Source: Bordetella parapertussis (GTDB taxonomy: Bacteria; Pseudomonadota; Gammaproteobacteria; Burkholderiales; SG8-41). From it: a stretch of DNA of 43,415 nucleotides. Numbering within the stretch: position 1 is the first letter of the stretch; each line of letters opens with the position of its first letter. The position numbers and the translations under genes are program-made. Below the pieces are notes generated by a model. It was given only the letters and a program-made list of their open reading frames with translations. It searched no databases and was not told the DNA's origin. The stretch lies in contig CAMBSS010000013.1 of assembly GCA_945870465.1 (NCBI GenBank), positions 1 through 43,415 of the forward strand, in the 5' to 3' direction. Below, one piece after another: positions 5,593-25,673 of this stretch.

Positions 5593-5623
5593 TCCTGCGA
5601 GTGGAATATTTCGCGACCCCGCG

Positions 5624-6747: not shown

Positions 6748-7164
6748 TTAATGGCGGCATTCGGCGGGCAGATATTTCCACGTTGTGGTGTTGCCGCCGC
6801 TGGTGCACGCCCAGACGAGGCGTCCGCCGTTCAACGACGGGCTGAGAACAACCGTGACGTCGGTGCCGATGGAGACGGCGCTTCCGAACACCGCGACGGT
6901 TCCCGTATCGGATATCGAACCGCCGGACACACGGCCGCCGGAGGCGACGGTCAGCCCCATTCCCGCGCTCGACATGGTGCCGTCGGATTGGATTTTTTCA
7001 GCGATCCCTACGCGAAAACTGCTTGCCGTAAGCATCAGTTCCGACACTTTGGCGCGTATCGTATAAGTGTTATGGGCCGGCAGCGCCACGGCCGCCAGAA
7101 TGCCGATGATCGCGACTACGATCATCAGTTCGATCAGGGTAAAACCTCGACTGAGTGTTTTCAC
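6748..7164 (-). CDS. pilA: Type IV pilin, PilA-like (copy without own promoter or Shine-Dalgarno)
   Basis: This 138-residue prepilin has a class IVa leader: [24 protein letters not shown] with Gly7 before the cleavage site and Glu at mature position 5. A C-terminal cysteine pair (WACTS... and AECRH) forms the D-loop. The frame opens with GTG at 7164; the adjacent ATG at 7166 is out of frame. No Shine-Dalgarno or sigma-54 site precedes it, in contrast with the two sister copies. It lies downstream of the terminator of copy b. It differs from b and c in many residues, and its segment before the cysteine loop ends [13 protein letters not shown]. It may be read through weakly, or be a silent donor copy. 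Confidence 0.85.
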
Positions 7165-7325: not shown

Positions 7326-7745
7326 TTAGTGACGGCATTCCGCCGCCACGTATTTCCATGAACTCGTAATACCCTGGGTCGAGCATTCCCACGCGATACG
7401 GCCACCGGCGCCCATCGAAGGACGCAGTTGAACCGTAACGTCGGTACCAATAGTGGATGCGCTGCCGATAACTATGATGGTGCCGGCATCGGTAACGCTG
7501 CCGCCGGCGACGCGTCCGCCGCTGTTGACGGTCAGACCAATCCCGGAGCTTGTCATGGTGCCGTCTGACGCAGATTTCTCTGCAACAGTGGTTTTGTAGC
7601 CGCTAGCCGTTAGTACGATTTCCGACACTTTGGCACGAATCGTGTAGTCCTGATACGCGGGCAGCGCAACTGCCGCCAGAATACCGATAATCGCAACGAC
7701 GATCATCAGTTCGATCAGGGTAAAGCCCCGTTGAATACGCTTCAT
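7326..7745 (-). CDS. pilA: Type IV pilin, PilA-like (copy b)
   Basis: This 139-residue prepilin has a short leader MKRIQRG, then [19 protein letters not shown], the hydrophobic assembly helix with N-methylation Phe and Glu5. The globular part is rich in Ser, Thr and Gly and ends with a cysteine pair (WECST... AECRH). The start ATG at 7745 has the Shine-Dalgarno AAGGGGAT. A sigma-54 type promoter lies at 7812-7826 and a terminator at 7250-7282, so this copy has a complete expression unit. It is the near twin of copy c; differences cluster in the globular domain. Expected role: major subunit of a type IVa pilus, processed by PilD (not in the window). Confidence 0.93.
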
Positions 7746-7811: not shown

Positions 7812-7826
7812 GCAAACTCCATACCA
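7812..7826 (-). promoter_or_regulatory. Sigma-54 (-24/-12) promoter of pilin b
   Basis: On the minus strand the site reads TGGTATGGAGTTTGC. It has GG and GC 10 nt apart and agrees with the TGGCACG-N4-TTGC consensus at TGG, A, G and TTGC. Transcription would start near 7800, giving a leader of about 55 nt before the ATG. pilA genes are commonly RpoN/PilR dependent. The same motif stands at the equivalent place before copy c. Confidence 0.75.
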
Positions 7827-8072: not shown

Positions 8073-8105
8073 AAAACAACAGCCCCTCGCGAGGAGGGGC
8101 TGTTG
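8073..8105 (-). terminator. Intrinsic terminator of pilin c
   Basis: CAACAGCCCCTC (8077-8088) pairs with GAGGGGCTGTTG (8094-8105) around GCGAG. TTTT follows on the minus strand. It lies 43 nt beyond the pilin c stop, the same spacing as in unit 1. Confidence 0.85.
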
Positions 8106-8148
8106 ATTGGAGCCAGAACCCTGCGTTAAAAATCCCGCAGGTTCAAAC

Positions 8149-8568
8149 TTAGTGACGGCATTCCGCCGGCACGTATTTCCAGGCGGTCGAAGTACCAGTC
8201 GTGGAGCATTCCCACGCGATACGGCCGCCAGCGCCCAGCGAAGGACGCAGTTGAACCGTAACGTCGGTACCAAGAGTAGTCGCACTGCCGATAACTATGA
8301 TGGTGCCGTTATCGGTAACGCTACCGCCGGCGACGCGTCCGCCGGTGCTGACGGTCAGACCCATGCCGGAACTCGACATGGTGCCGTCCGATGCAGATTT
8401 CTCGGCGATAGTCGTTTTGAAGCCGCTGGCCTGCAATACAATTTCCGACACTTTTGCGCGAATCGTGTAGTCCTGATACGCGGGCAGCGCGACCGCCGCC
8501 AGAATACCGATAATCGCAACGACGATCATCAGTTCGATCAGGGTAAAGCCCCGTTGAATACGCTTCAT
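8149..8568 (-). CDS. pilA: Type IV pilin, PilA-like (copy c)
   Basis: This 139-residue prepilin shares its first ~45 residues with copy b (MKRIQRG leader, assembly helix, [15 protein letters not shown]) and differs mainly in the globular region: [12 protein letters not shown] against [12 protein letters not shown], and [18 protein letters not shown] against [18 protein letters not shown]. The start has the best Shine-Dalgarno of the three (AAGGAGAT), with a sigma-54 site at 8650-8664 and its own terminator. It is probably the main expressed pilin. It is the pilin closest to the glycosyltransferase block, on the same strand. Confidence 0.93.
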
Positions 8569-8961
8569 TCAGATCTCCTTAAAAAGTTACAAACGCCAAA
8601 TACAAGCAATAATTAGTTATATAAAGTAATGCTTGCCAGCGTCCTGGTCGCAAGTTCCATACCAGTGCCCTGGATTGATGCCAGAAAAGCCCGGTTATCC
8701 ACAGACTTGCGTCAGGTCGCCGGTTAGGCAGCCAAATTTCAGCGGAGCGGTGAATTTGAAGCTCTGCCGGCACTAAAATCCAATAAATTTTTCACAATGC
8801 GGAAAATTGAATCGGGAATTGACGCGTCGCAGCATCGCTGCGGCGACTGCAAACGACAAATCATGACGCTGAGCGTCAGCATCGACTCAATCCGCCCCGG
8901 CTGCTTACGCCGGGTGGTGTGCCCGCGTTTGGCAGGCGTGCAACCCGGAGATGCCGGGTTC
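8569..8961. other. Gene-free stretch upstream of pilin c and downstream of the glycosyltransferase block
   Basis: It holds the pilin c leader and sigma-54 promoter (8650-8664). Upstream of these lies a repeat-conserved region (about 8690-8809) that would be the place for an activator such as PilR. Beyond that are two GC stem-loops: CCCGGC/GCCGGG at 8896-8914 and AACCCGG/CCGGGTT at 8942-8960. The latter lies directly after the stop of the last glycosyltransferase gene and could end its transcript, although it lacks a T-run. No open frame here looks like a gene. Confidence 0.6.
8650..8664 (-). promoter_or_regulatory. Sigma-54 (-24/-12) promoter of pilin c
   Basis: The minus strand reads TGGTATGGAACTTGC, with GG and GC in the required 10-nt spacing and an intact TTGC. 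The predicted start is near 8638, with a leader of about 70 nt. It is conserved with the promoter of copy b although the bases around it differ, which supports function. Confidence 0.78.
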
Positions 8962-10512
8962 TTACCCGTGAGCGGCGTCGATTTCGCGCACCAGTTCCGT
9001 CCTGACATCTGCGACGACACCGTCCCATGCGCCAGGGTTCTGCTGACGAAACAGCCGCAGCGCCGGATACCACGGAAGATGCGCGCCGGTTTCCAGATAG
9101 CGCCACTCCGCAACGGCGGGGACCATGACCCACGCGGGCTTGCCCAGCGCTCCGGACAGGTGGACCGCAGTCGTGCACACCGTGATGACCAGATCGAGGC
9201 TCGCGATCAAAGCCGCAACGCCGTCCATCGCGGCGTCCGCCTGCGACCATTCGTGCAGCACGATGCCGTGACGCACGCGCAGGTCGGCGATTTCAGCGCC
9301 GACCGCGCCGTACTGCAGGGAAATAAAATGCGCACGCGGCAACTTCAATAACGGCAGCAGCGCGTCGAGCGCGAGTGAACGCGCCGCCTGGCCGGTGCCC
9401 GGCGTGCCGCCGCGCCACGACACGCCGACCTTGAGACCACGCCCCAGGGTGTCGAGCCGCGCGCGCCATGCCGCAACCTGCGCAGCGTCGGCAAGCAGAT
9501 AGCCGCGATGCGCGGGGAAATCCGCCTTTGACCTGCGCATTATGCGTGGCAAATCACCCATGCGAACGCGGTAATCCGGCGCGGCTTCGCCCGACCAGTC
9601 GGGCGCGCCCTCGACACGATGGCGATAGACCACGGCGGGCGGAAAGCTGCGCGCGAACAAGCGGGCCAGCCGCGGATCGCATTCGAGCACGGTGTGCCGC
9701 GCGCGCGGCAGGAGGTCCGGCAGACAGGATGCAAACATGATCTGATCGCCCAAGCCCTGTTCCGCCTGCACCAGCAGGCGTTTGCCTTCGAGCGCTTCAC
9801 CCTGCCAATGCGGGTAGGCGTATTCCTGCCAATGGTCGACCTCGGGTATGCGGGTGCGCCATGCATACTCGTCCCACCCTGCGGCGAAATTCCCCTGCTT
9901 CAGCAGGGAGAATCCGCGCTGCAAATGCGCCTCGGCGAAATTCGGGTCGAGCGCGAGCACGCGCTCGATCAATGCGGCGGCGGCTTCGCGCTCGCCGAGA
10001 TCAGTCAGCACCAGCGCCTTGTTGAAAATCGCCTCCACGTGATTCGGCGCCAGCTTGAGCGCGCGATCGAGCAGGAGCAGCGCCTCGCGCGGCACACCGC
10101 GGTCACGCAATGAAAGGCCTAGATTGGCGAGCGCGGTGAGATGTCCCGCGTCCACCGCCAGCGCGCGGCGATAGCTCTGCTCGGCGTCGGCCGCGCGTCC
10201 TTGCAGGCGATAGACATTGCCCAGCGCACTGTGCGCGTCCGCATCATTGCGCCGCGCGCACGCCGCTTCCAGCAACTCCTGCGCGCGTTCCAGGCGGCCG
10301 CTGTGCGCCGCAGCCAGCGCCAGGTAGTATGCCGCGACGAAATTATCGGGTTCCGCATCCAGCGCCGCGCTGAGATCCCGGGACGCGCCGGCGAAGTCCT
10401 GCGCGTTAAAACACGCGATGCCCGTTTCGAGCCCGGTGCCGCGCACGGCGCCCGCAGGGTTGGCTGCGGGTTTACTTGCCAGGCTTCTGAGTATCGACCA
10501 CAACATGATCAT
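8962..10512 (-). CDS. TPR-glycosyltransferase paralogue 1 (GT9-like C-terminal domain)
   Basis: This 516-residue protein starts at 10512 in the overlap TAATG with the stop of the preceding gene, a sign of translational coupling. Residues ~25-215 are about five TPRs, ending with the linker AAGWDEYAWR. The C-terminal half is GT-B like and resembles heptosyltransferase-type (GT9) enzymes: EQGLGDQIMFASC at 251-263, ECDPRLARLF near 277, VGVSWRGGT at 362-370, then TVCTTAVHLSGALG and LPWYPALRLFRQ. It is predicted to be cytoplasmic, with no signal or membrane segment. The TPRs would present a protein or glycan acceptor; donor and acceptor are unknown. It is the last gene of the minus-strand block. 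Confidence 0.85.
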   Translation of the reverse strand: MIMLWSILRSLASKPAANPAGAVRGTGLETGIACFNAQDFAGASRDLSAALDAEPDNFVAAYYLALAAAHSGRLERAQELLEAACARRNDADAHSALGNVYRLQGRAADAEQSYRRALAVDAGHLTALANLGLSLRDRGVPREALLLLDRALKLAPNHVEAIFNKALVLTDLGEREAAAALIERVLALDPNFAEAHLQRGFSLLKQGNFAAGWDEYAWRTRIPEVDHWQEYAYPHWQGEALEGKRLLVQAEQGLGDQIMFASCLPDLLPRARHTVLECDPRLARLFARSFPPAVVYRHRVEGAPDWSGEAAPDYRVRMGDLPRIMRRSKADFPAHRGYLLADAAQVAAWRARLDTLGRGLKVGVSWRGGTPGTGQAARSLALDALLPLLKLPRAHFISLQYGAVGAEIADLRVRHGIVLHEWSQADAAMDGVAALIASLDLVITVCTTAVHLSGALGKPAWVMVPAVAEWRYLETGAHLPWYPALRLFRQQNPGAWDGVVADVRTELVREIDAAHG

Positions 10513-11993
10513 TACCGCGCGTGTTGCGCGAGTTCCTGCGCGATACGCGCGACCACGGGCGCCCAGTCGCCAGCACTCTGCTGCCGGAACAAATGCACGC
10601 TGGGGTACCATGGCATCTCGTCTCCGTGCTCGAGGTAACGCCATTCCGCAGCCGCGCGCAATACGACCCATGCGGGCCTGCCGAGCGCGCCGGCCAGATG
10701 TACCAGTGCGGTCTGCACCGAAATCACCAGGTCGAGTGCCGTCACCAGCGCCGCCGTTTCATCATAGTTCTCGACGGCGTCGCGCCAGTGGTGAAGCGGG
10801 ATGCGTTGCGCGCGCGCCCATGCGGCGAGTTCGCCGGCGACGTCGCCGTGTTGCAGGCTCACGAAATGGCACCCTGCCTGCCCGAGTATCGGCAACCAGT
10901 CCGCCAGTTGCATCGAACGGCTCGCACCCTGCGTGGTCGGCGCTCCGCCCGACCATGCGATGCCGATTTTTAATCCCTGCCCCAGGGTGTCCAGACGCTG
11001 CTTCCAGTAGTCAACCCGCGCAGCATCGGCACGCAGATAGCCTACATGCGCCGGAAAATCGGCCCGCTGCTTGCGAAATTGGGCGGGCAGGCTGCCGATG
11101 GCAACCTGGCGATCGATGCCAGCCGCTTGCGCCAGCCGCGCGAGATTTGCGTCCCCTTCCTGCTGCGACACTATCGTTGCGCCCGGGAACGAACGCTGAA
11201 ACAGCTGCACCAGCTTGGGCGCACATTCGATCACGCACGTCGCGAGCTTCGGCAGCAATGCAGGCACGCAGGATGCAAACATGATCTGATCGCCTACGCC
11301 CTGCTCGGCATAAATAAGCAGTTTGCCGGATGCGAGCGGCTCACCCTGCCACTCCGCCAGCGGCAACGTACGTGGCAAGTAATTGCCGCGCGCGCGCTTG
11401 CGCGCTTCGTAGTCGGGCCATCCTGCTTCAAAACGGCCGAGCTTCAGATTGGCCAGCGCCTGATTCAGCTGCGCCTCGTGCATAGCTGGATGCGCGGCCA
11501 GCAGCTCACGGCAAATTGCCAACGCTTCTTCCGCGCGCCCCTCCTGGATGAGGATCGCGCTGAAATTGCACCGCACGTCGGGATCCGCCGGATCGAGTTC
11601 CATCGCCTTGCGGACATGCGTGGCACCTGCTTCGAATTCGCCCACCTGATGGCTGAGCACGTAGCCGAGCGTACTATGGGCGGTGGCAAAATCGGGTTGC
11701 AATGCGAGCGCCCGTTCAAGACTGGTCACCGCCTGTCCGAGTTCGCCGAGACCAAGTGCCGCCAACGCCATGTTGTAAAACGCCGGCGGAAATTGCGGGC
11801 GGAAATGCACTGCCAGTGTGAACGCATCTGCCGCGTCTTCATATTCGCCCAGCGCAAGATAACTCAGGCCGAGATTGTTGTGAGCATCCGCGTCATCGTG
11901 CCGCTCGTCAACCACCCGGTTGAAACATTCGACCGCCGCCGCAAAGTTACCCGCAGCATAAGCCGCAAGTCCGGCGTCGAACGTGGTGCGCAT
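10512..11993 (-). CDS. TPR-glycosyltransferase paralogue 2 (GT9-like)
   Basis: I choose the ATG at 11993, 7 nt after the preceding stop, giving 493 residues; a GTG at 12017 in the same frame would add eight. TPRs span residues ~5-185 (AYAAGNFAAAVECF, AHNNLGLSYLALGEYEDA and further repeats). The transferase part has EQGVGDQIMFASC at 230-242, GIAWSGG, then SVQTALVHLAGALGRP and MPWYPSVHLFRQQ. The first GTDP-like loop reads GVGD where its sisters have GLGD. It shares the gene arrangement and domain plan of its neighbours, so it probably arose by local duplication. The substrate is unknown. Confidence 0.85.
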   Translation of the reverse strand: MRTTFDAGLAAYAAGNFAAAVECFNRVVDERHDDADAHNNLGLSYLALGEYEDAADAFTLAVHFRPQFPPAFYNMALAALGLGELGQAVTSLERALALQPDFATAHSTLGYVLSHQVGEFEAGATHVRKAMELDPADPDVRCNFSAILIQEGRAEEALAICRELLAAHPAMHEAQLNQALANLKLGRFEAGWPDYEARKRARGNYLPRTLPLAEWQGEPLASGKLLIYAEQGVGDQIMFASCVPALLPKLATCVIECAPKLVQLFQRSFPGATIVSQQEGDANLARLAQAAGIDRQVAIGSLPAQFRKQRADFPAHVGYLRADAARVDYWKQRLDTLGQGLKIGIAWSGGAPTTQGASRSMQLADWLPILGQAGCHFVSLQHGDVAGELAAWARAQRIPLHHWRDAVENYDETAALVTALDLVISVQTALVHLAGALGRPAWVVLRAAAEWRYLEHGDEMPWYPSVHLFRQQSAGDWAPVVARIAQELAQHAR

Positions 11994-12000
11994 CGCAGGA

Positions 12001-13713
12001 TCAGCTTTCACGTCCACGCGCCGCCAAGCCGGCCAACTCCGCCGCGACGCGTTCGATTACCGGCGGCCAGGTTTCGCCGCCGGCGCGATGAAAGAGACGC
12101 ATGGATGGATACCAGGGCATCGCCATTCCGCGCCGCGGATAGCGCCATTCGGGACTGTCCGGCAGCAGGGTCCACACGGCTTGCCCGAGCGCGCCCGCCA
12201 CATGCGCCACGGTATTGTCTATGCTGATGACCAGGTCGAGCGCGCCGATGATGGCCGCGAGTTCGTCGAGGTCATTGACCGCAGCGCCGAGTTGCGCGAC
12301 GGCTATGCCGGATTGAGCGCGCAAATCTTCCAGCTCGGCCGCGATATCCCCATACTGCAAAGCGCAAAACGTCGCGCCCGTGCTGCGCAGTATGGGCAAC
12401 CACTGCGGCAAGGCAGTCGAGCGCACGAACTGCCGCGAGCGCGGCGTGCCGCCGCGCCAGGCAATGCCTACCCGCAGCGCGGTCCCTGCCGCCAGTTTCC
12501 GGCGCCAAGCCCCGCTGCGCTGCGCGTCAGCCACCAGATAGCCGCCGCGCGCGGGAAAATCGGCGCGCGACCGCCGCAAATACTGTGGCAGCGACCCGAT
12601 GGCCGCCTGAAAATCCACCGGCGGCAATTTTTTCAGCCAGTGCTTGTCGTCGTTCTTGTCCGCGCCATGGACGCTCGCCTGCGGAAACGAGCGCTGGAAC
12701 AACGCCGTCAACCGTGTGTTGCATTCAATTACGCAGTGCGCGCCGGTCCGCAGCAAGTCGGGCAGGCAGGACGCAAACATGATTTCATCGCCCAGACCCT
12801 GCTCGGCATAGACCAGCAGGCGTTTGCCCGCCAGCGGCTGGCCCTGCCATTCCGGGTAGGGAAAACCGCGCGCCACCATGGCGCCGCTCGCGAAGCGCTG
12901 CGCGTACGCGCCCCAGCCGGCCGCATAGTCGTCCCGCATCAGCAGTGCGTAACTGCGATTGATGACGGCATCGGCAAATTGGGGAGACCGGGCAAGCACC
13001 GCATCGTAATGCGCAACGGCCTCGTCCAGGCGGCCGAGATCGCGCAGCGCGTGCGCAACACAAGCGCGGGTCTCGACAACATCCGGGCCGAGCGCGAGCG
13101 CGCGCTCGAAACTCTGCAGCGCCGCGGCTGGCTCGCCGGTCTCCAGCAGCAGCAGGCCCAGATTGTGATGCGCCTCCAGCCAGTTCGGTTCGAGCGCCAA
13201 AGCGGCATCGAAACTCCGCCGCGCCTCTGCATAACGGCCCGCCCGGTAAAGCGCGTAAGCGAGGCGGCCACGCGCGTCCGCGCTCGCCGGCGCGCACTCG
13301 ACGGCAGACCGGTAGCAATCGATCGCTTCGTTCAGCTCGCCGCCCGTTTTCAGCAGATTGCCCAGACCCCGCCACGCGGCGCCGTGCCGGCCGTCGCGCG
13401 CGAGCGCCTGCCGGTAGGCCGCTAGCGCCGCTTCGGCGCGTTCGAGTTTCACCAGCGTTTCGGCGAGCTCGAACGAGGCGGCGGCGAACTCCGGCGCAAA
13501 GTGGGCGGCCAGTTGGAAATAATCGGCGGCGTCTTCGAGTTTGCCCTGGTCGCGATAGGTCAGCGCCAGCTCAAAATGCGCCGCCGCGAAATCGTGCTCA
13601 AGCTCCAGCGCGCGCAGCAGGCTGCGCTCGGCGGCGGCGTACTGCGCGCGTTCGCGCAATTGCGCGCCCTGCCGGTGCAGTTCGGCAGCGGTGTTTGCGG
13701 CGGCGTCACTCAT
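12001..13713 (-). CDS. TPR-glycosyltransferase paralogue 3 (GT9-like, long TPR array)
   Basis: This 570-residue protein has about seven TPRs (residues ~10-265), more than paralogues 1 and 2. The transferase domain shows EQGLGDEIMFASC from 304, ECNTRLTALFQRSFP, SLPQYLRRSRADFPARGGYL, VGIAWRGGT and SIDNTVAHVAGALG, and it closes with MPWYPSMRLFHR. The ATG at 13713 overlaps the end of the preceding GT2-FkbM gene by 8 nt. Changing TPR number with a conserved catalytic half suggests different acceptors rather than different chemistry (inference). Confidence 0.85.
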   Translation of the reverse strand: MSDAAANTAAELHRQGAQLRERAQYAAAERSLLRALELEHDFAAAHFELALTYRDQGKLEDAADYFQLAAHFAPEFAAASFELAETLVKLERAEAALAAYRQALARDGRHGAAWRGLGNLLKTGGELNEAIDCYRSAVECAPASADARGRLAYALYRAGRYAEARRSFDAALALEPNWLEAHHNLGLLLLETGEPAAALQSFERALALGPDVVETRACVAHALRDLGRLDEAVAHYDAVLARSPQFADAVINRSYALLMRDDYAAGWGAYAQRFASGAMVARGFPYPEWQGQPLAGKRLLVYAEQGLGDEIMFASCLPDLLRTGAHCVIECNTRLTALFQRSFPQASVHGADKNDDKHWLKKLPPVDFQAAIGSLPQYLRRSRADFPARGGYLVADAQRSGAWRRKLAAGTALRVGIAWRGGTPRSRQFVRSTALPQWLPILRSTGATFCALQYGDIAAELEDLRAQSGIAVAQLGAAVNDLDELAAIIGALDLVISIDNTVAHVAGALGQAVWTLLPDSPEWRYPRRGMAMPWYPSMRLFHRAGGETWPPVIERVAAELAGLAARGRES

Positions 13714-15028
13714 CGGCGGGTTCTATCATGAAATTCACCGCGTGCACGTAATCGAAACGATGTTTGATGCGATAACGGTTCTGCTGCAGCCACGTTTCGA
13801 AGTCCGCAATCTGGTGCCGGAACACTTCGATCATGATCTTGGGCCGCGACTCGGCGATGATGCGCCGGGCGCCGGCGAGGACTGCGAGCTCCATGCCTTC
13901 GACGTCGATCTTGATGAAATCCACCGGGTGCGCAATCAAATCGTCGAGCGGCGCCGATTTAACCACGCCGGCTACGGCGGGCACCAATCGGCTCGCGCCG
14001 ATATTGTTGTCGCTCGTACGCACGAGGTCGTAAGTTGCAACCCGATCTGAAGCCCCGATGCCAAGCAACGAGAGATCGGCGTTGGTTACAGCATTTTCCG
14101 CGAGGTTCCAGCGCAGCAGCGCAATGGCAGCGGGATTGGGCTCAAGTACCGTGATGCTGCGCGGTCGCATGAACCGCGCATAGTAGACGACGTGGTTGCC
14201 GACATAAGCGCCCACTTCGACAATTGCGGCGTCCGCCGCAACCCAGCTTTCGACAAAAGCAAGTTCGCCGTGCTCGAAAAACCGCCCCTTGAGAAAACTG
14301 CGCTGGATCAGGTCGAACGGGTTGGTAACGTAAAACCGGAGCTTTTCCCCGCGCAGCGTAAACTCCGCATGGAAATCCAGCCCGCTGCATTTCTCGCAGA
14401 TGATGCGTTCGACCGCCATGCGCCAGTCGCGATTGGTCGCTGCGCGCGGGCCGCCCGCATACGTATCGCGGCGGTTGAAAAAAAACGGCCGCCCGATCTT
14501 GACGCAATTGAATTGCGACCACATCCGCAGGTAGTAGTCGAAGTCCTCGCCCGCATCGAGCTGCGGGTCGAAAGGCGTGGCCAGCGCCGCCGCGGTCTTC
14601 ACGAAATGCCCGATCTGCAGCGTGATAAACGGATCGTTGCCGAGGAGCTGATCGATACGCGTGATTTCCAGCAATTGGTCCGGGCGCAGGACGCCATGCT
14701 CCTCGTCCGCGGCAAGCTCATGGATCGCGCCCCATATCGCATCATGGCGGTGCAGCTCGTGCGTTACGTTGGCGAACGCCTGCGCGCACAGCACGTCGTC
14801 CGCATCGAGGAAGAATATCCAGTCGGCACCTGCGTCTTGCGCCTGCCGCACGCCCTGGTTGCGTGCCGCCGAGCGCCCCAGCTTGCCTTGCGTATCATCG
14901 ATCTTGATGAAAAGAATATCGGAAAACGGCCCTTGCGCCGTGGCGAAGGCATGATTGACCGAATCTTCGGCGTCCAGTGCGTACCATTCATGGCCGGGAC
15001 CGACCGGGGTGACGACGGCGCATTTCAT
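13706..15028 (-). CDS. Fusion of GT2-like glycosyltransferase and FkbM-type methyltransferase
   Basis: The 440-residue product has two parts. Residues 1-~230 resemble a family 2 glycosyltransferase, with GRSAARNQGV at 51-60 and the DXD-type metal motif DADD at 75-78. Residues ~255-440 are an FkbM methyltransferase: the SAM-binding loop VEVGAYVGNH, LEPNPAAIALLRWNL, and the FIKIDVEGMELAVLAGA motif. One polypeptide could thus add a sugar and then methylate a glycan hydroxyl, a step that often caps glycans. It is predicted to be cytoplasmic. The start is 51 nt after the previous gene. Confidence 0.85.
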   Translation of the reverse strand: MKCAVVTPVGPGHEWYALDAEDSVNHAFATAQGPFSDILFIKIDDTQGKLGRSAARNQGVRQAQDAGADWIFFLDADDVLCAQAFANVTHELHRHDAIWGAIHELAADEEHGVLRPDQLLEITRIDQLLGNDPFITLQIGHFVKTAAALATPFDPQLDAGEDFDYYLRMWSQFNCVKIGRPFFFNRRDTYAGGPRAATNRDWRMAVERIICEKCSGLDFHAEFTLRGEKLRFYVTNPFDLIQRSFLKGRFFEHGELAFVESWVAADAAIVEVGAYVGNHVVYYARFMRPRSITVLEPNPAAIALLRWNLAENAVTNADLSLLGIGASDRVATYDLVRTSDNNIGASRLVPAVAGVVKSAPLDDLIAHPVDFIKIDVEGMELAVLAGARRIIAESRPKIMIEVFRHQIADFETWLQQNRYRIKHRFDYVHAVNFMIEPADE

Positions 15029-15079
15029 TGGATCACGCGAACCATGAACGCCCCTGCCGGTTACAAGCCGCTGAATCCA

Positions 15080-15859
15080 TCACATTCGGTCCGGATGAAA
15101 ATACCAGTCATCGCCCTTGGAGAAGATTTCAAACTCCCGCCGGAAACCATTGGACTCCAGCAAGCGCTGAATGGACTCGCGCGCGTCAGGCTTGAAATTG
15201 TGCTCTACCGTGATCACGCGGACCTGGTACTTCGCAAAATCGAAAGTCTCGAGGATATCGAATTCGCTGCCCTCGGTGTCGACGGACAGATAGTCGATCG
15301 ATGCGGGCGCGCCGTGCTCCGCCAGCAAATCATTCAGGGACACGGTATCGACCATGAATGTTTCTGCGTCAACCAGGCGGGACTCGGCGTGCATATCATT
15401 CCCGGCAAAGCTTTTAAGCGACGACAATTCCGGATACCGGTTGGCGGCCAGGAATTCAAGCTGCTTGCCCGACTCCCGCCACACGCACCGATAGTCGACA
15501 GCAGCGTTTCTGTTCGCGCGCAGCGGGTCGCGCCAGCCGGGGAAAGGTTCGGCAAGAATACCGCGCCACCCGAGGTTTTTCTCGAGGTGATGGGTGTTGC
15601 TCAGAAACACGCCGTCAGCAGCGCCGAACTCGACGAAAAACCCGTTTTTTCTGTCGGCCAGTTTATAAGTGACATACAGGTCCTGCAGCAGGTGGGCCTT
15701 CGATTGCGGAAATCGCGTCAGACAGTGCGCGAGTAAACCGAGCGCGTCATGATTGACGGCAGCCCGCTCCTGGACGCCGTGATGCGCCAACAGGTAGTCC
15801 CACAGATAGATCAGTCCGGTTTCAGTGTAAATACTCGGCAGATGGTGCTTTTTTTTCAA
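15080..15859 (-). CDS. FkbM family SAM-dependent methyltransferase
   Basis: This 259-residue protein has the SAM-binding loop VEFGAADGVFLSNT (about residue 75), acidic strand end AEPFP, and IDYLSVDTEGSEFDIL, the FkbM signature that ends in a Glu-Gly pair. FkbM enzymes O-methylate sugars or polyketides. The frame opens with TTG at 15859, overlapping the preceding stop as TTGA, with no nearby in-frame ATG; the non-standard start probably relies on coupling to the upstream gene. A nearby AGGGG may serve as a weak ribosome-binding site. Confidence 0.82.
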   Translation of the reverse strand: MKKKHHLPSIYTETGLIYLWDYLLAHHGVQERAAVNHDALGLLAHCLTRFPQSKAHLLQDLYVTYKLADRKNGFFVEFGAADGVFLSNTHHLEKNLGWRGILAEPFPGWRDPLRANRNAAVDYRCVWRESGKQLEFLAANRYPELSSLKSFAGNDMHAESRLVDAETFMVDTVSLNDLLAEHGAPASIDYLSVDTEGSEFDILETFDFAKYQVRVITVEHNFKPDARESIQRLLESNGFRREFEIFSKGDDWYFHPDRM

Positions 15860-17274
15860 AGCGCAGCCCCTGTTAAATGCATTCTCATCGTTTTGAACCT
15901 GGCTGCGACATCCGTCATCAGATCATGCCAGTTGCCGCCCGGCGGCTGGCGGAATATGCGCATCGTCGGATACCACGGCGAATCTTCCCTCCCCAGCAAC
16001 CACTGCCATGCGCTGTCACCGCGCGTCAGCAACCATACCGGCTTGCCCAAAGCGCCGGCGAGGTGCGCGACCGACGTGTCGATGCTGATGACGAGATCGA
16101 GCTGCTCGATCAAGGCCGCGGTCTCCAGCAGGTCGCCGCATTCGTCCATCGCATCGAACAGCGGCCATTTCGCGAATTCCAGTTGCCGCGCATCTTCATT
16201 TTTCTGCAGACTAACGAACTGCACCCCGCCAGCATCCAGCAACGGCGCAAAGGCCTGCAGCCGGGTGCTGCGCCGCGCTTCAGTCAGAGTGCGCTTCGCG
16301 CCCGCCCACACCAGCCCCACCCGCGGACGCGCAACCGCTTCGAGCCTCGCGGCCCACGTGCGCTGCAGGTCCGCCGCCACCCGCACATAAGGCACTTCCC
16401 GCGGCACTGTCTCTAGCCGGGTTTCGAACAAATGCGGCAAACTCATCAGCGGACAGTGCCGGTCGAAGGACCCTTCGATCAGCGGATCGTCCTGCGAGAT
16501 CACCTCATCGACCCCGGCCGTCGCGCGCATGAGCCGCACCAGCGGCGCGGCGCAATAGACGATGACGCGCTGAGCGCCGCGGCCCTTCAACTGCGGCAGG
16601 TAGCGCATCATCATGACGCAGTCGCCCAGCCCCTGCTCAGTCCAGACGAGCAGACGCTTGCCCGCCAGCGGCTCGCCCTGCCACCGCGGCACCTCCTGCA
16701 TGCGATCGAACAGGTCGCGCGCGGAACTCACGTGCCGAGGATCGGCCCCATCGTAACGCTGCTCATATAACGTAAACGCGGCAGCGTAATCTCCGCACAG
16801 CAACAGGAGCAGCGCGTAGTTGAGCCGCGCTGAGGTATATGCCGGGTCCAGCCGCATCGCTTCCTGATAGCTCGCCGCGGCTTCGTCGTACCGACCCTGG
16901 GCTTTCAGCGCGTTGCCGAGATTGTTCTGCGCCCCGGCGAAATCGGCCTTGAGCGCCAGCGCGCGGCGATACTGCTGTTCGGCTTCACGCGGACGGTTCA
17001 GCTCGCGCAGGGCCTCGCCGAGATTGTTCAGAAAAAACGGGTTGTCCGGACTCAACGCAATTGCGCGCCCGATCAACTTTACCGCCCTGTCGTAATTGCC
17101 ATCCTTGTGCGAAATTGCGCCCAGCAGATGAAGCGCATCGAAGCTGCCGGCATCCGTGTCGAGCACATCGCGGCAAATGCTCGCGGCCTCCGTCATCCGC
17201 CCCGCGCCGTAGTGCTGCCGCGCAATTTGCAGCACCTGCTTGGCAGTCGCGATCTGAGGTTCTTCGGCTCGCAT
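15856..17274 (-). CDS. TPR-glycosyltransferase paralogue 4 (divergent GT9-like)
   Basis: This 472-residue protein has about four to five TPRs (residues ~10-160; AGRMTEAASICRDVL, FLNNLGEALRELNRPREAEQQYRRAL). Its catalytic half is the most divergent of the six: TEQGLGDCVMMMRYLPQL replaces the IMFASC version, and VIVYCAAPLVRLM replaces the ECxxRL block. The later motifs are kept: VGLVWAGAK, SIDTSVAHLAGALGKPVWLL and SPWYPTMRIFRQ. It may therefore be an older paralogue with another donor. It overlaps the downstream FkbM gene by 4 nt. Confidence 0.85.
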   Translation of the reverse strand: MRAEEPQIATAKQVLQIARQHYGAGRMTEAASICRDVLDTDAGSFDALHLLGAISHKDGNYDRAVKLIGRAIALSPDNPFFLNNLGEALRELNRPREAEQQYRRALALKADFAGAQNNLGNALKAQGRYDEAAASYQEAMRLDPAYTSARLNYALLLLLCGDYAAAFTLYEQRYDGADPRHVSSARDLFDRMQEVPRWQGEPLAGKRLLVWTEQGLGDCVMMMRYLPQLKGRGAQRVIVYCAAPLVRLMRATAGVDEVISQDDPLIEGSFDRHCPLMSLPHLFETRLETVPREVPYVRVAADLQRTWAARLEAVARPRVGLVWAGAKRTLTEARRSTRLQAFAPLLDAGGVQFVSLQKNEDARQLEFAKWPLFDAMDECGDLLETAALIEQLDLVISIDTSVAHLAGALGKPVWLLTRGDSAWQWLLGREDSPWYPTMRIFRQPPGGNWHDLMTDVAARFKTMRMHLTGAAL

Positions 17275-17349
17275 GGGAACGGAAAGTGTACTACGGCCAC
17301 AGCCGCCGGGCCGCCGGCCTGCGGCTTGCGCCCGCCGCGGACCGTATGA

Positions 17350-19227
17350 TCAGCAAAGCGACGCCAATTCCGCGCGCACCTGCTCGACCACTGTTGCCCA
17401 ATCTCCCGGAGCCGGCTGCCGGCACAGCCTGACCGACGGGTACCACGGACTGGCGGCCGGCACGCGCTGCCAGCGCCAGTCGGCGTCGTGGGGCAACATG
17501 ATCCAGGCCTTGCGGCCGAGGGCCCCAGCCAAATGCGCCACGGTGTTGTCTACGGTAACTACGCCATCGAGCGCCTGCAAAAGCGCCGCCAGCCCGTCCA
17601 TGTCCTCCAGCGCTTCGACGAAACTCAATACGTCGGCTCCGCACATCGCCTTGATTTCAGCCAGTTCGTCGTCTGCCGCGCGCTCGAGACTGATAAATTT
17701 AATGCGCGGAATAGCAAGCAACGGCATCAGTTCGCGCAGCGGCATCGAGCGCAGATCGCGGCGCGTCTTCGCGGTGCCGCCGCGCCAGGAAATTCCAACG
17801 CAGTAAGCGCCGCCCCCGGCCGCCAGCTGGGCACGCCATTGCGCGGTGCGCGCCGGATCGGCGCGCAGATAGCCGGAGTGCGCCGGAAATTCAGCGGCGT
17901 TCCGCCGCAACAGGCGCGGCAGGCTGCCGATCGCGATCTGCGTCTCGATCTGCGGGTATTCCGCCAGCCAGCGGCGATCACCGTCACGTGGAGCGCCATG
18001 CACACTGCCGGCGGGGAATGAACGCGCGAACAGGCCCGCCAACCGCGCATCGCACTCGATGACACAGGATATTCCCCGCGCGAGCAAATCCGGCACGCAC
18101 GAGGCGAACATCATTTCATCGCCCAGCCCCTGCTCGCCGTAAACCAGCAAGGCGGCGGCGCCGCGCAGTGCTTTGCCCTGCCACGCAGGATAAGGAAAAA
18201 CGCGCGGCGCGGCGCCGCTGCCGCGCGCGTTGCGCATTTCGTAGTCTTCCCACCCGCGCGCGTAATCGCCGCTACCGAGCAGGGCGAGTCCGCGGTTCCA
18301 GCGATATTCGCTTTCCGCGGGATAAGCGGCAATCAATTTTTCGTAATGGGCGAGCGCCGCTTGGAGCTGCCCCTGCTCGGCCAGAGCAAGGCCGAGGTTG
18401 GCCTGCGCCCCCATGGAAGACGGCTCGAGTTCGATTGCGCGCTCGAAATACTGCTGCGCGCGGCGCGAGTCGCCGCGGTGCGCCAAATACATCAAGCCCA
18501 GGTTGGTGCATGCCGCCGCGTAACCGGGGCTGAGTTCGAGCACGCACTCATACGCCGCAATCGCGCCCGGCACGTCGCCGCAACGGCTGCGAACCAGCGC
18601 TGACTCGAAATGTATATCCGCATCGCTTGGCGCGACACGCAATGCATGTTCAATGTGCGCGAGCGCCGCGGCGGCGGCACCCGCCTCGCGCTCCAGGCGC
18701 GAAAGGCCCAGTCTCGCGGCCGCGCAATCCGGCGCGTGCGCAAGGGCAACCTCGTAGCAATCGCGCGCATCCTCGCTCTGACCAAGCGCAATGTGCTCTG
18801 CGGCTTGTGCAGCCCAGGCCTCAGCGTCGTCGGGATGCAAATCGGTCGCCCGCGCAAACCCGGCGAGCGCGGCCTGGTGCCGGCCCAATACACGCGCTGC
18901 GCGTGCCCCGCACAAATGAGCAGCTGAAAAACCGCCACGCAAAGCGAGTGCGGCCCCGGCGTGCGCAAAGGCGGCACAGGGATCGCCGCGCATGAGCGCG
19001 AGTCCTGCGCGCAAACATTCCAATTCGGCGCGGTCACGCTGCAGGGGCTCGCTCAGCAGCGCGTCGACTCCGGCCGCATCATGAGCGGCGAGCAGACGCA
19101 AGCCGCTATCGAACCACGCTGATGGCCGGTACGCGCTGTCGGGCAATGCGGCGGCGGCTGGATTCAGCGCAGTGTTACCACGCCCCGCGAACAATGAATG
19201 CCAAAGCCGGGAAAGCCCGCTCAGCAT
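17350..19227 (-). CDS. TPR-glycosyltransferase paralogue 5 (GT9-like, longest)
   Basis: This is the longest paralogue, 625 residues, with about eight TPRs (residues ~50-330) before the catalytic half. The latter has EQGLGDEMMFASC, ECDARLAGLFARSFP, SLPRLLRRNAAEFPAHSGYL, VGISWRGGT, TVDNTVAHLAGALGRKAWIMLP and SPWYPSVRLCRQ. No signal peptide is evident, though the N-terminus is mildly amphipathic. The gene starts 40 nt after the GT8-like gene. The best relatives of its catalytic half within the window are paralogues 3 and 6. Confidence 0.85.
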   Translation of the reverse strand: MLSGLSRLWHSLFAGRGNTALNPAAAALPDSAYRPSAWFDSGLRLLAAHDAAGVDALLSEPLQRDRAELECLRAGLALMRGDPCAAFAHAGAALALRGGFSAAHLCGARAARVLGRHQAALAGFARATDLHPDDAEAWAAQAAEHIALGQSEDARDCYEVALAHAPDCAAARLGLSRLEREAGAAAAALAHIEHALRVAPSDADIHFESALVRSRCGDVPGAIAAYECVLELSPGYAAACTNLGLMYLAHRGDSRRAQQYFERAIELEPSSMGAQANLGLALAEQGQLQAALAHYEKLIAAYPAESEYRWNRGLALLGSGDYARGWEDYEMRNARGSGAAPRVFPYPAWQGKALRGAAALLVYGEQGLGDEMMFASCVPDLLARGISCVIECDARLAGLFARSFPAGSVHGAPRDGDRRWLAEYPQIETQIAIGSLPRLLRRNAAEFPAHSGYLRADPARTAQWRAQLAAGGGAYCVGISWRGGTAKTRRDLRSMPLRELMPLLAIPRIKFISLERAADDELAEIKAMCGADVLSFVEALEDMDGLAALLQALDGVVTVDNTVAHLAGALGRKAWIMLPHDADWRWQRVPAASPWYPSVRLCRQPAPGDWATVVEQVRAELASLC

Positions 19228-19267
19228 GCAACGCGGTCAGCCGCGATGCGGGGTTCGCGCGGCGCGT

Positions 19268-19945
19268 TCATTTGCGTTGCTCGACGTTCAGCATGTCCTG
19301 CCGCGCGGCCCGCCACTCGTCCGCGTACTCGCAATCGCGGTACTCCTGAAAGTACGGCCCGCCCAGGGTGTAATGCACCAGTGACACATCGCGGTTCGGC
19401 GCGTTGTAGCCAACGAGGTGGTTCCAGCGCGCCGGAATTTCACCGATCAGTTCGTCGTTCGCCAGCCATTTGAATTGATGGAGTTCGAGGCCCGATGCAG
19501 TATTGACGTAGTCGGGCGTCAGCGCGCGGCACTGCGCGTTGTTGAACAGCATCACGCTCGACCAGTTTTTCTTCTGGTATGCGGTTTGTGGCTGATCGAG
19601 AAATTTGCGGGTCTCTTTGGGCACGTGGTCGTGCTTTACCACCATGACCGCATAGCGCTCGTCGCGCAGCGCATACAGTTTCTCAATGTCGTCGAGCACC
19701 AGCATGTCGCAGTCCATGAATATGGACCAGCCCTGGTAGTCGGACAGAAAGGGCGTCAGAAAGCGCGAAAACGAAAAATCGGTCGACTGCAGCGGATGGC
19801 GTTCGCGCGTCAACACGCCTTTCAACTCGCTCAACATCACCGGCACTACCGCCACCGGCACCGATGCCCTGGCATGAATGCTATGGGCCAACACGCTGTA
19901 CGCGGCCGCCTCGCGCGAGTCGTAGCCGATAAAAACTTTGATCAT
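19268..19945 (-). CDS. GT8-like glycosyltransferase
   Basis: This 225-residue protein starts with VFIGYDSREAAAYSVLAHSI, the entry pattern of GT-A fold nucleotide-sugar transferases. The metal-binding DXD is DCD at 78-80 in SIFMDCDMLVLDDI. A later VMLFNNAQCR and the C-terminal VSLVHYTLGGPYFQEY fit the acceptor side. It is probably a cytoplasmic transferase in the same glycan pathway as its neighbours. It contains no TPR, so it may extend a sugar placed by the TPR enzymes. Donor sugar unknown. Confidence 0.8.
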   Translation of the reverse strand: MIKVFIGYDSREAAAYSVLAHSIHARASVPVAVVPVMLSELKGVLTRERHPLQSTDFSFSRFLTPFLSDYQGWSIFMDCDMLVLDDIEKLYALRDERYAVMVVKHDHVPKETRKFLDQPQTAYQKKNWSSVMLFNNAQCRALTPDYVNTASGLELHQFKWLANDELIGEIPARWNHLVGYNAPNRDVSLVHYTLGGPYFQEYRDCEYADEWRAARQDMLNVEQRK

Positions 19946-19980
19946 GAAGTGCTGCCGTAGTGGTTAATCGGACCGGAAGT

Positions 19981-21747
19981 TCAGGCCATCTTACGCAATG
20001 ATTGCGCGACATCATCAATAACCGCGCCCCATTCTCCATACACGGACTGCCGGAACACGCGCACCGAAGGATACCAAGGCATCTCCTGCCCGGCAATTCC
20101 ATAGCGCCACTCGGGACTGTACGGCGCCATCACCCATACCGGCGTGCCGAGCGCGCCGCCCAGGTGAATAACGGCGGTGCACACGCTGATTACAAGATCG
20201 AGGGCCGTGACCAGCGCCACCGCCTGCTCGTAGTCGGCGCGTACTTCGTTCCAGCTGTGCACCGTGACGCCCGTGGCCGCACGCAGTTCATCAATTTCAG
20301 CGCGGCAGTCGGTATATTGGAGATCGACGAAGTGCGCGCCTTCCATCTGCAAGATCGGCAGCCATTGCGCAAGCGGCATGGAGCGCACCGGGCGCCGCGA
20401 TTTGTGCGTGCCGCCCTGCCATGAGATGCCCACTTTGAGGCCGGGCCCAAGCGCGGCGAGACGCTCCCGCCATGCCGCGACCGCCTGCGGATCGGCGCGC
20501 AAATAGCCGCTGTGCCGCGGGAAATCCGCGCGCGCGCGGCGCAAGTACTGCGGCAGGCTGCCGATCGAGCTTTGCAGGTCGATGTCCATCTCGCCGGCAC
20601 CGGCGGGCAGCGACTTGTCCGGGTTCGTTGCACGAACCGCGGTTTGCGGAAACGAGCGCCGGAACAGCTTCTCAAGCTTGGGGGAGCATTCGATCACGCA
20701 ATTCGCGCCCGCGGCCACCACGTCCGGAATGCAGGACGCGAACATGATCTCATCGCCCAGGCCCTGCTCCGCGTAGACCAGCAATTTTTTACCCGCCAAC
20801 GTGCCGCCGTCCCAGTTCGCACCCTCCGCAGCTCGTGGCCGGCGGTCGGCGCCCAGCAGCCGCAATTCGTAGTCCGGCCAGCCGCGTGCGAAGTCGTGCT
20901 GCAGCAAATAAGCAAGCGAGCGGTGCCAGATGGCCAGCGTAAAATCAGACTTGAGCAAGATGGCCGCGTCATAAGCCGCGATCGCCTCTTCGAGCCGCCC
21001 GAGATCCTGATACACGATGCCGAGATTGTTCAGGAGCTCGGCATCGGCGCCGTCGATCGCGCGCACGGTCAGGTAGTGCTGCAGCGCCTCTTGCGGGCGG
21101 TGCAGTTTCTGCAGCACTAGCCCAAGGCATTTGAGCGCTTCGATGCGCCTTGGTGTCTGCGCTAAAACTGCCTGCAGCAATGCCTGCGCTTCTTCATAGC
21201 GTTCGAACTCGATATAGGACAACGTCAGGTTTTTCAGCAGGTCGGGAATTTCCGGCGCAAGCGCATACGCACGCTCGAATCGCAACAACGCCTGTTCGCT
21301 CGCGCCGGCCGCCTGCCAGATCAGGCCCAGATTGCAATGCGCCGCGGCGTTGCCGGGGTCCAGCCGCAGCGCCTGCTCGTAACTTGCAATGGCGGCCTGC
21401 CGCTCTTCTAGCATGAGAAATACGTTGCCGCGTGCCGCATGGGCAGCGGCGAAATCCGGCCTCGCGGCGAGCGCCCGATCGAGATGGGCCGCCGCGTCGG
21501 TGAAATTTCCACCCTCGCCCAGCAGCGCGCCCAGCAGGTAATGCGCGTCGGCATGCAGCGCATCGATTTTGAGCGCGTCGCGGTAGTTATTTTCCGCGAC
21601 GGCGCGCTCACCGGCCTGCTGACTGCGATACCCCCGCTGCAGCAAGTCGTCGATGGCGCCGCGCGCGGCTTCCGGCGAACGCGGCGAGCGCGAAGAAAAC
21701 AGGCGCGAAATTAAATTGGTCAGCATCACGTTGGCGGCGGGTAGCAT
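19981..21747 (-). CDS. TPR-glycosyltransferase paralogue 6 (GT9-like, first gene of the block)
   Basis: The product is 588 residues from the ATG at 21747, or 581 from a second in-frame ATG at 21726; neither has a strong Shine-Dalgarno. About seven TPRs lie at residues ~35-290. The catalytic half has YAEQGLGDEIMFASC (near residue 320), ECSPKLEKLFRRSFP, VGISWQGGT, SVCTAVIHLGGALGTPVWVMAP and MPWYPSVRVFRQ. As the first gene of the nine-gene minus-strand run, its promoter should lie in 21748-21869, shared with the divergent FkbM gene. Confidence 0.85.
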   Translation of the reverse strand: MLPAANVMLTNLISRLFSSRSPRSPEAARGAIDDLLQRGYRSQQAGERAVAENNYRDALKIDALHADAHYLLGALLGEGGNFTDAAAHLDRALAARPDFAAAHAARGNVFLMLEERQAAIASYEQALRLDPGNAAAHCNLGLIWQAAGASEQALLRFERAYALAPEIPDLLKNLTLSYIEFERYEEAQALLQAVLAQTPRRIEALKCLGLVLQKLHRPQEALQHYLTVRAIDGADAELLNNLGIVYQDLGRLEEAIAAYDAAILLKSDFTLAIWHRSLAYLLQHDFARGWPDYELRLLGADRRPRAAEGANWDGGTLAGKKLLVYAEQGLGDEIMFASCIPDVVAAGANCVIECSPKLEKLFRRSFPQTAVRATNPDKSLPAGAGEMDIDLQSSIGSLPQYLRRARADFPRHSGYLRADPQAVAAWRERLAALGPGLKVGISWQGGTHKSRRPVRSMPLAQWLPILQMEGAHFVDLQYTDCRAEIDELRAATGVTVHSWNEVRADYEQAVALVTALDLVISVCTAVIHLGGALGTPVWVMAPYSPEWRYGIAGQEMPWYPSVRVFRQSVYGEWGAVIDDVAQSLRKMA

Positions 21748-21869: not shown

Positions 21870-22757
21870 ATGACCGCGCTCGTTCACAATGCCGTTCCCC
21901 GTCACAATTTACCCATGAATGTCTTTCGCGTACTGCTGTGGCCTTTACACAACTTGCGGCGTTCCGCCAGTGCCCAAACGGCACCGCTGGCGCCGCAGAT
22001 TTCGCTCGAGCAATACGAAATGCTGGAGCCGCACCAGACCGTCAATGACGGCACCACCGAGGTGGCGTACGCGACTCCCAACGTATTCACCAAGTGGCGC
22101 GTCGATTCGCTGTTTACCAAGGAACCCGACACCATCGAATGGATCAGGGGATTCCAGGCGGACGAAGTTTTCGTCGACATCGGTGCCAACGTCGGTATGT
22201 ACACGATATGGGCGGCCAAAACACGCGGGGTACGCACGTTTGCGTTCGAGCCGGAGTCGCAAAACTACGCGCTGCTTTGCCGCAACATCGTGCTCAACGG
22301 TTTGATGGAATACGTCACCGCCTATTGCCTCGCGCTGAGCGATTCCGCCAGCTATTCGCTGCTGCATCTGAGCCAGTTCCAGATCGGCGGTTCGTGCCAC
22401 TCGTTCGGCGAAAAGGTCGACCACCGGCTGGAACATCGCGACACCCTGCTGTCGCAAGGCTGCGTCTCGACCACCCTCGACCTGCTGGTGGACAAAGGCG
22501 TGGTGCCGGCGCCCAACCACATCAAGATCGACGTCGACGGACTCGAGCACAAGGTGCTCGACGGCTGCCGTGGCGTGCTCGCCGACCCGCGCCTGAAATC
22601 GGTGCTGGTGGAAATCAACACCAACCTGGAACAACACCGCAAGATCATCGCCGACATGAAGTCGCTCGGGTTCGGTTATTCCGAGCAGCAGGTGGCGCAG
22701 GCGCAACGCACTGAAGGCGCATTCAAGGGCGTCGGGAACTATGTCTTCCTCCGTTGA
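21870..22757 (+). CDS. FkbM family SAM-dependent methyltransferase
   Basis: This 295-residue protein has the SAM loop VDIGANVGMYTIWAAK, AFEPESQNYALLCRNI, and HIKIDVDGLEHKVLDG; the last is the FkbM signature. The N-terminal ~60 residues are an extension with no known domain. I keep the ATG at 21870 because a promoter ends about 50 nt upstream; an ATG at 21915 is an alternative and neither has a clear Shine-Dalgarno. The stop overlaps the next gene by 17 nt. It probably O-methylates a sugar made by the divergent glycosyltransferase block. Confidence 0.82.
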   Translation: MTALVHNAVPRHNLPMNVFRVLLWPLHNLRRSASAQTAPLAPQISLEQYEMLEPHQTVNDGTTEVAYATPNVFTKWRVDSLFTKEPDTIEWIRGFQADEVFVDIGANVGMYTIWAAKTRGVRTFAFEPESQNYALLCRNIVLNGLMEYVTAYCLALSDSASYSLLHLSQFQIGGSCHSFGEKVDHRLEHRDTLLSQGCVSTTLDLLVDKGVVPAPNHIKIDVDGLEHKVLDGCRGVLADPRLKSVLVEINTNLEQHRKIIADMKSLGFGYSEQQVAQAQRTEGAFKGVGNYVFLR

Positions 22758-23535
22758 AGAACACGTGTTGTACCAGATCGCCAACGCGCCGATCCGCGAG
22801 TATCCGTACGCGCATATTTACGTCGAGAACGTATTTCCGGACGATTTTTACGCGGCAATGCGCGCCAACTGGCCGGGCGCTTCGGCGCTGACCAGCCTCG
22901 CCGACACCGGGCGGGTTCCCAAAGGCGCGTATCTCGAGCGCTTTGTCATGCCGTTCACGCCAGCGGAGATCAACAAGCTGGATGAGTCCCGCCGCCTGTT
23001 CTGGACCGAATTTTCAGGCTGGCTGATTACGCAGAGATTTCTGACCGCGATGATCGACAAGTTTGAACCCTACGTCAAAGAACGGTTCGGCGATGAAATT
23101 TACAAGTGCGGTTTTGAAGCGGATTCCCTGATCGTGCGCGATCTGACCAACTTCAGCATAGGTCCGCATACGGACGCACCGCACCGCCTGCTATCGATGC
23201 TGTTCTATTGCCCCGATGATGATTCGCTGAAGCATCTCGGCACCTCGATTTACGTGCCGCGCGATGCGGCGTTTAGCTGCCGGGGCGGCCCACATTACCC
23301 GCACAAGCTCTTCCATAAAGTCAGAACCATGGAATACCGGCCGAATTCGCTGTTCGCTTTTATCAAGAACGATCACTCGTTTCACGGCGTCGAGCCGATT
23401 GGCGACGCCGACGTGCTACGCGATATACTGCTCTACGACGTTCGAGTGTTTGAGCCCAAAGGCCAGTCGCGACAACCCGGACCGGGTTTCGGCCTTAAGA
23501 TGCTGAAACGTTTGTTTGGCAAAAATTCGAATTAA
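22741..23535 (+). CDS. 2-oxoglutarate/Fe(II) oxygenase-like protein
   Basis: This 264-residue protein carries a plausible double-stranded beta-helix iron site: HTD at 143-145, His215 in SFHGVEP, and Arg227 twelve residues on as a candidate 2-oxoglutarate ligand. Segments such as LLSMLFYCPDDD and SLFAFIKNDHSFHG fit prolyl-hydroxylase-like enzymes. It overlaps the FkbM gene, so the two are probably translated together and act on one substrate, perhaps a glycan or a modified residue. Hydroxylation is inferred from the fold motif; the substrate is unknown. Confidence 0.7.
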   Translation: MSSSVEEHVLYQIANAPIREYPYAHIYVENVFPDDFYAAMRANWPGASALTSLADTGRVPKGAYLERFVMPFTPAEINKLDESRRLFWTEFSGWLITQRFLTAMIDKFEPYVKERFGDEIYKCGFEADSLIVRDLTNFSIGPHTDAPHRLLSMLFYCPDDDSLKHLGTSIYVPRDAAFSCRGGPHYPHKLFHKVRTMEYRPNSLFAFIKNDHSFHGVEPIGDADVLRDILLYDVRVFEPKGQSRQPGPGFGLKMLKRLFGKNSN

Positions 23536-25663: not shown

Positions 25664-25673
25664 GGCGCAGTCT

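Follow-up and report, generated by a model that had tools for sequence, protein, structure and literature searches.

A tandem block of TPR-glycosyltransferase genes beside type IV pilin genes and a candidate cytosolic route to pilin glycosylation

Why would a bacterium keep six related transferases, each armed with tetratricopeptide repeats (TPRs), in a single block next to its type IV pilin genes? The question is raised by a stretch of 43,415 nucleotides of contig CAMBSS010000013.1 (assembly GCA_945870465.1), referred to below as the window, whose source bacterium is related to freshwater and groundwater betaproteobacteria. Nine closely spaced genes, designated A to I, follow one another on its minus strand from position 21747 down to 8962 and, as the original prediction had pointed out, pilin genes lie next to them: after a gap of 393 bp come three genes matching PF00114 on the same strand. 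The block probably encodes a cytosolic glycosylation system that is independent of oligosaccharyltransferases (OTases) and whose main acceptors are the neighboring type IV pilins; we infer which protein is modified, which sugar donor is used and what each paralogue does.

The six genes of common plan, a TPR array followed by a glycosyltransferase (GT) half, are all present on the minus strand as anticipated, and strong TPR matches were obtained in every product (Pfam). They are A (19981..21747, 588 aa), which is the first gene of the block, C (17350..19227, 625 aa), the divergent D (15856..17274, 472 aa), G (12001..13713, 570 aa), H (10512..12017, 501 aa) and I (8962..10506, about 514 aa from the ATG at 10506). 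The longest open reading frame (ORF) of gene I begins at 10671, within H; an ATG start at 10506 or 10512 is more likely. The motifs announced for these proteins were recovered: QG[LV]GD and PWYP occur in all six, and a W-x-G-G loop (WRGG, WQGG or WSGG) occurs in five, with WAGA in D. The aspartate of QGLGD is kept in 114 of 114 aligned domains. Repeat number varies, as had been claimed: the full-length AlphaFold model of A shows eight TPRs and then a GT-B domain, and estimates made by hand from the spacing before QGLGD give about five for D, six for H and I, eight for G and nine for C.

The proposal that the catalytic half is GT9-like held for the fold and, at the level of Pfam profiles, for a single protein. 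The predicted structure has a GT-B fold of the GT9 type, whereas Glyco_transf_9 (PF01075, cut-off 22) is passed by D (26.0 bits), missed by G (19.1 bits) and gave no Pfam match at E ≤ 0.001 in A, C, H and I. Because D is the only one to pass, the GT9-like assignment of the six rests on fold. The catalytic aspartate of the first loop of GT9 enzymes has a counterpart, the QGLGD aspartate, which aligns within a weak stretch with that of 'VGD' in WaaF, a residue with a recognized role in that enzyme. Among NCBIfam models, TPR-type families remained below their cut-offs, and heptosyltransferase I yielded weak stretches (22.7 bits in D and 19.6 in H, for a cut-off of 185.3). Neither PF13844, the catalytic domain of GT41, nor PglL_A was matched in any of the six (Pfam, E ≤ 0.001), and profile and fold together rule out that they are O-GlcNAc transferases (OGT, GT41). 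In sequence listings, relatives are mostly named no further than 'tetratricopeptide repeat protein'. One related locus contains a long ORF (L025:6240-9647) whose single frame encodes two TPR-GT9-like catalytic domains, which accounts for two rows of the tree described below, and two proteins of about 1000 aa (P0057 and P0061) may resemble it.

Three further genes are interleaved with the six. The FkbM-family methyltransferase and the GT2-FkbM fusion of the original prediction stand, as E (15080..15859; PF05050, 68.3 bits) and F (13706..15028; PF00535, 28.4 bits, and PF05050, 64.5 bits), while the GT8-like assignment of B (19268..19945) is weak, since PF01501 reaches 21.0 bits for a cut-off of 24.3. 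Intergenic distances within the block range from -17 to +75 bp, and the overlaps that had been noticed fall at D/E, F/G and G/H. Gene content and order are repeated in a second assembly, where they are distributed over two contigs, one with A to E (L021) and the other with G to I and the pilins (L028), F falling in the break, and more distant relatives share part of the gene set and order. This repetition of gene order, complete or partial, rules out chance or artefact as the origin of the block. Scans for sigma-70 promoters and terminators gave no clear excess over shuffled sequences, and Rfam and tRNA scans of the window gave no match.

The three pilin genes lie on the minus strand. Pilin 1 (8149..8568, 139 aa; PF00114, 43.6 bits, with an N_methyl match) and pilin 2 (7326..7745; 39.3 bits) are near copies with similar flanking DNA on both sides (7326-8568), and are likely a recent duplication; pilin 3 (6748..7164; 43.5 bits) has a GTG start. 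The close relative L028 has two pilins, against three in the window. A sigma-54-like site, TGGTATG-N4-TTGC, is found at 8650..8664 (minus strand), 82 bp before the start of pilin 1, and another at 7812..7826 (minus strand), 67 bp before that of pilin 2. These are the only two TGGYAYR-N4-TTGC sites in the window, for an average of 0.25 in shuffled sequences, 2 of 100 of which reach two.

Linkage to pilins was examined in 70 related loci, the best rows of a longer list from a search of genome contigs in which the six GT domains served as queries, a pilin being scored when a phmmer match of at least 50 bits lay within 5 kb of the cluster. Thirty-six loci have a pilin and two a flagellin; 12 have neither despite at least 4 kb of room downstream, and the 20 that end within 4 kb say nothing on linkage. 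In all but two of the pilin loci (34 of 36; the exceptions are L074 and L080), the pilin lies on the same strand and after the TPR-GT gene. These loci are not independent and were counted apart, some sharing a genome (L021 and L028) and two sharing a contig (L025 and L061). Cultured bacteria also carry loci of this kind, among them Methylococcus capsulatus Texas (L052) and Sphaerotilus mobilis (L059). Across 60 relative genomes, a TPR-GT domain was found in at least 42, a PF00114 pilin in 44 and flagellin in 33. The 150 listed domain matches form 83 clusters, and among the matches listed a pilin lies no more than 5 kb from 19 of them, a large excess over the 0.49 expected from random placement; the count covers PF00114 matches only, and L132 and L133, whose pilin-like neighbors were seen by phmmer, were scored as unlinked. 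As a control, two of the 53 HldE genes over cut-off lie on a cluster contig, 1.4 and 2.8 Mb away. HldE, which supplies ADP-heptose, exceeds its cut-off in 53 of the 60 genomes, and is so common that its presence does not discriminate. The survey for blocks consistently lacking pilins, by which the pilin reading could have fallen, thus left it standing (36 of 70 loci, 19 of 83 listed clusters).

Some of these loci hold a second kind of enzyme. TPR-GT41-like ORFs of the OGT family occur in 15 of 90 loci scanned, including 6 of the 36 pilin loci, and stand directly beside the pilin in L044, L052, L053 and L076. All the GT41-like ORFs submitted to Pfam (ten plus three) match PF13844; the confirmation covers 10 of the 15 loci, and L033, L039, L130, L135 and L141 are assigned by ORF resemblance alone. 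The window itself adds a TPR-DUF5672 gene, convergent with its pilins. In our view, this gathering at pilins of TPR arms joined to catalytic domains of unrelated families is the strongest sign that what counts is the arm, and hence a protein acceptor.

Are the six paralogues merely spare copies? In a tree of 114 GT domains, separate groups with good support hold A, C, G, H and I, each together with copies from other betaproteobacterial loci, and this rules out recent tandem duplication into spares for those five. Copies of the A group occupy the first place, or the first two places, of their arrays, while in L023 and L024 the GT8-like gene precedes those of the C group. D belongs to a clade with full support (100/100) and long branches, together with copies from L123 (adjacent to flagellin) and L125 (5.2 kb from flagellin) and one copy of L025; its long branch is why the tree rules out spare copies for the other five only. 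A likely donor-pocket position differs between paralogue groups (Asp, Cys or Gln), with Cys or Gln mostly taking the place of a second pocket aspartate in the A, H and I groups; these residues are quoted for the starred clades of the tree rather than for the wider, hand-picked A, C, G and H groups. The age of the groups and their biased pocket residues suggest that the retained paralogues are not spares but may specialize in different donors, sites or steps.

The closest parallel in layout is FlmG of Caulobacter, in which flagellin is bound by the TPR half and its modification requires the GT-B half, according to the part of the published account considered here (PMC7591256). Like the six, FlmG joins a TPR N-terminal half to a GT-B C-terminal half and acts in the cytosol on a filament subunit, a pilin being the likely acceptor here; it is a single enzyme, whereas six stand in tandem in the window, and the comparison is one of layout, not of FlmG sequence (PMC7591256, in part). 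The neighbors in the window are pilins and not flagellin, although some relatives of the TPR-GT9-like family do lie beside flagellin. Cyanobacterial Ogt, which we take to have the TPR layout and a GT41 domain, is of the O-GlcNAc-transferase type, whereas the six are GT9-like without PF13844, TPR-GT41 enzymes being present at some sister loci. The gene arrangement is nevertheless alike, a glycosyltransferase gene beside the major pilin: in the sections of the two reports used here, ogt often adjoins pilA and acts in PilA glycosylation (PMC12288463, PMC12647202). The TibC/AAH (BAHT) enzymes have, in the portion of their description used, an N-terminal beta-barrel and a four-Cys iron finger (PMC4358343), where the six have a TPR array; no such finger was seen in 56 aligned domains, which carry two nearly invariant cysteines, C63 and C78. 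The lipopolysaccharide (LPS) heptosyltransferases WaaC and WaaF, which are GT9 enzymes, differ from the six by the TPR fusion, the tandem paralogues, the pilin linkage and the second pocket aspartate, replaced as mentioned above. Finally, the pilin OTases PglL, TfpO, TfpM and PglS are described, in the part of a review drawn on here, as periplasmic enzymes using lipid-linked glycans and often encoded near their target, PglL excepted (PMC12645811); a gene near the target and, presumably, pilin glycosylation are common to both, whereas the six are predicted soluble transferases.

By analogy with FlmG, each TPR array would grip the pilin before its export. The GT9-like domain would then take a sugar from a nucleotide-linked donor, which could plausibly be ADP-heptose or a different nucleotide sugar, and attach it to Ser/Thr or to a sugar that the pilin bears by then, and the GT8-like, GT2 and FkbM enzymes could, judging from their families, extend and methylate the glycan. 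The paralogues would share this work by donor, site or step. The original prediction also placed a TPR-guided glycosylation in the cytosol with pilins as the likeliest acceptors, which linkage and fold favor; its further idea that each array picks a different acceptor fared less well. With six enzymes, differing in their pockets, for three similar pilins, it is at least as likely that they work on one acceptor with different sugars, at different sites or in different steps as that each has an acceptor of its own.

Several observations, here and in the next paragraph, weigh against pilins as the main acceptors. The block is known from its genes alone, and the glycan on these pilins is an expectation drawn from them; GT9 is over the Pfam cut-off in one of six proteins. 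Pilins usually enter the Sec pathway early, so a cytosolic enzyme must reach them before export. Their own sigma-54-like sites suggest that the pilins may have their own promoters and may be transcribed apart from the block. A sign in favor of the pilins is that the Ser/Thr fraction of the globular part is higher in linked ones (median 0.25, n = 48) than in unlinked ones (0.19, n = 31), a comparison that leaves shared descent uncorrected; 9 of 40 fetched unlinked pilins were dropped for failing the motif, and L157, kept as unlinked at a contig end, may be linked. The genome linkage figure ignores kinship (15 of the 60 genomes belong to one genus) as well as contig ends. Twelve of the 70 loci have room for a pilin or flagellin and have neither, many single copies stand apart from any appendage gene, and 20 stretches around clusters mostly without a listed pilin comprise 15 with neither (some cut by contig ends), three with flagellin (L123, L124 and L125) and two with a pilin (L132 and L133). 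Taken alone, the flagellin link is marginal: among the matches listed, 2 of 83 clusters have flagellin within 5 kb for 0.35 expected (P 0.05), with 76 of 77 flagellin matches used, the one left out (G005:C67) being on no cluster contig.

The rival explanations differ in what they make of the same loci. GT9 enzymes are familiar chiefly from the synthesis of the LPS core, and the fold of the six is that of LPS heptosyltransferases; the enzymes might then serve to make or modify LPS, capsule or some other polysaccharide of the cell surface, the pilins being linked through a shared cell-surface locus. A TPR-GT9-like gene close to the LPS gene LpxK (L089:1826-5379) suggests that some members of the family may act on LPS, and the single copies without an appendage gene point the same way, whereas pilins are linked far more often than random placement would give, no LPS or capsule assembly protein was found among the window proteins put to Pfam (part of the ORFs), and we know of no role for large TPR arms in LPS core synthesis; for the block as a whole, we regard this as unlikely. 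Slightly less likely still is a genuine cytosolic glycosylation whose main acceptors are other surface proteins, such as adhesins, minor pilins or flagellin, with the adjacent pilins incidental. The enzymes outnumber the distinct pilins, and Pfam confirmed a flagellin neighbor in L123, L081, L058 and L125, as did a PF00669 search in L124. On plasmids, a TPR-GT gene of Azospirillum ramasamyi lies about 6 kb from flagellin and FlbT, one of Burkholderia ambifaria has a YadA-like adhesin about 5.5 kb to one side and type VI secretion genes on the other, and one of Azospirillum is separated by some 7.6 kb from a very large protein with Ig-like domains; the family is therefore wider than pilins, although pilin is the commoner of the two neighbors tested in the 70 loci and follows the TPR-GT gene on its strand with the regularity given above. 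The third possibility, that a glycan is built on a lipid carrier by the TPR-GT proteins and then transferred to the pilin by an OTase in the periplasm, would follow the usual pilin route as far as the review describes it (PMC12645811, in part). PglL_A is present in 16 of the 60 genomes, and in one of them (G027) its gene lies between the pilin and the TPR-GT gene, an arrangement from which it follows that the OTase and TPR-GT systems can coexist and are not exclusive. The genome search, which covered PglL_A but not TfpO, TfpM or PglS, found PglL_A in none of the 15 genomes of the nearest genus. No OTase appeared among the window proteins put to Pfam, and we hold this route to be very improbable for the block.

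Glycosylation of the neighboring pilins in the cytosol therefore remains our preferred reading, and it allows a broader proposal, to which we give somewhat less than even chances: that stepwise cytosolic transfer by a battery of TPR-GT9-like enzymes, joined at some loci by TPR-GT41, is a widespread proteobacterial route to type IV pilin glycosylation that replaces periplasmic OTases, the Asp, Cys or Gln pocket groups corresponding to different donors or steps. The new points would be a GT9-like class at type IV pilins, an old paralogue battery and its mixing with GT41. In titles and the opening lines of abstracts of the papers listed, no description of TPR-GT9 enzymes acting on type IV pilins was found; subscription papers and preprints were outside that scope, and absence from print is not claimed. 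In the part of the review cited here, pilin glycosylation is the work of periplasmic OTases on lipid-linked glycans (PMC12645811), cyanobacterial Ogt being the exception. If the proposal is true, pilins can be sugar-coated before export in proteobacteria, and the cases of FlmG and Ogt widen into a common principle for bacterial filaments. The block would also supply a natural series of paralogues with which to study how acceptor and donor are determined by TPR arm and GT domain, and would give a likely function to a large family now mostly bearing only the name of its repeats.

Besides the block and the pilins, the window holds several genes that recur at related loci. Divergent from the block, on the plus strand, are an FkbM-family methyltransferase (21870..22757; PF05050, 39.3 bits) and a possible 2OG-Fe(II) oxygenase (22741..23535) matched weakly by PF13640 (E 0.058, 14.8 bits, cut-off 27), each with homologues in 14 of the 70 loci, a figure that reaches 33 for gene B. 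They are followed by a conserved 104-aa protein (23562..23876, plus strand) that has no Pfam or NCBIfam match and whose homologues, found in 33 of the 70 loci, include 24 of the 36 pilin loci and come directly after the pilin in L070, L077 and L084. Convergent with the pilins is a TPR-DUF5672 protein (5498..6712, plus strand; PF18922, 71.8 bits, and TPR), with strong homologues near pilins in L028 and on the contig shared by L025 and L061. Upstream of the block, a minus-strand signaling and pilus-motor cassette (24005-35610) encodes a CHASE2-kinase, PP2C, FHA, a CHASE2-cyclase, a metallo-beta-lactamase-fold/PDEase-like protein, a PilB-like ATPase with GAF, and HD-GYP; parts of it recur beside TPR-GT loci (PilB in 18 of 70, HD-GYP in 19 of 70). 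At the other side of the pilins, 2218-5592 encodes a SoxA/TsdA-type cytochrome, a cytochrome c and a 5'-nucleotidase-C-domain protein, presumably SoxB-like, and this gene content suggests a sulfur oxidizer.

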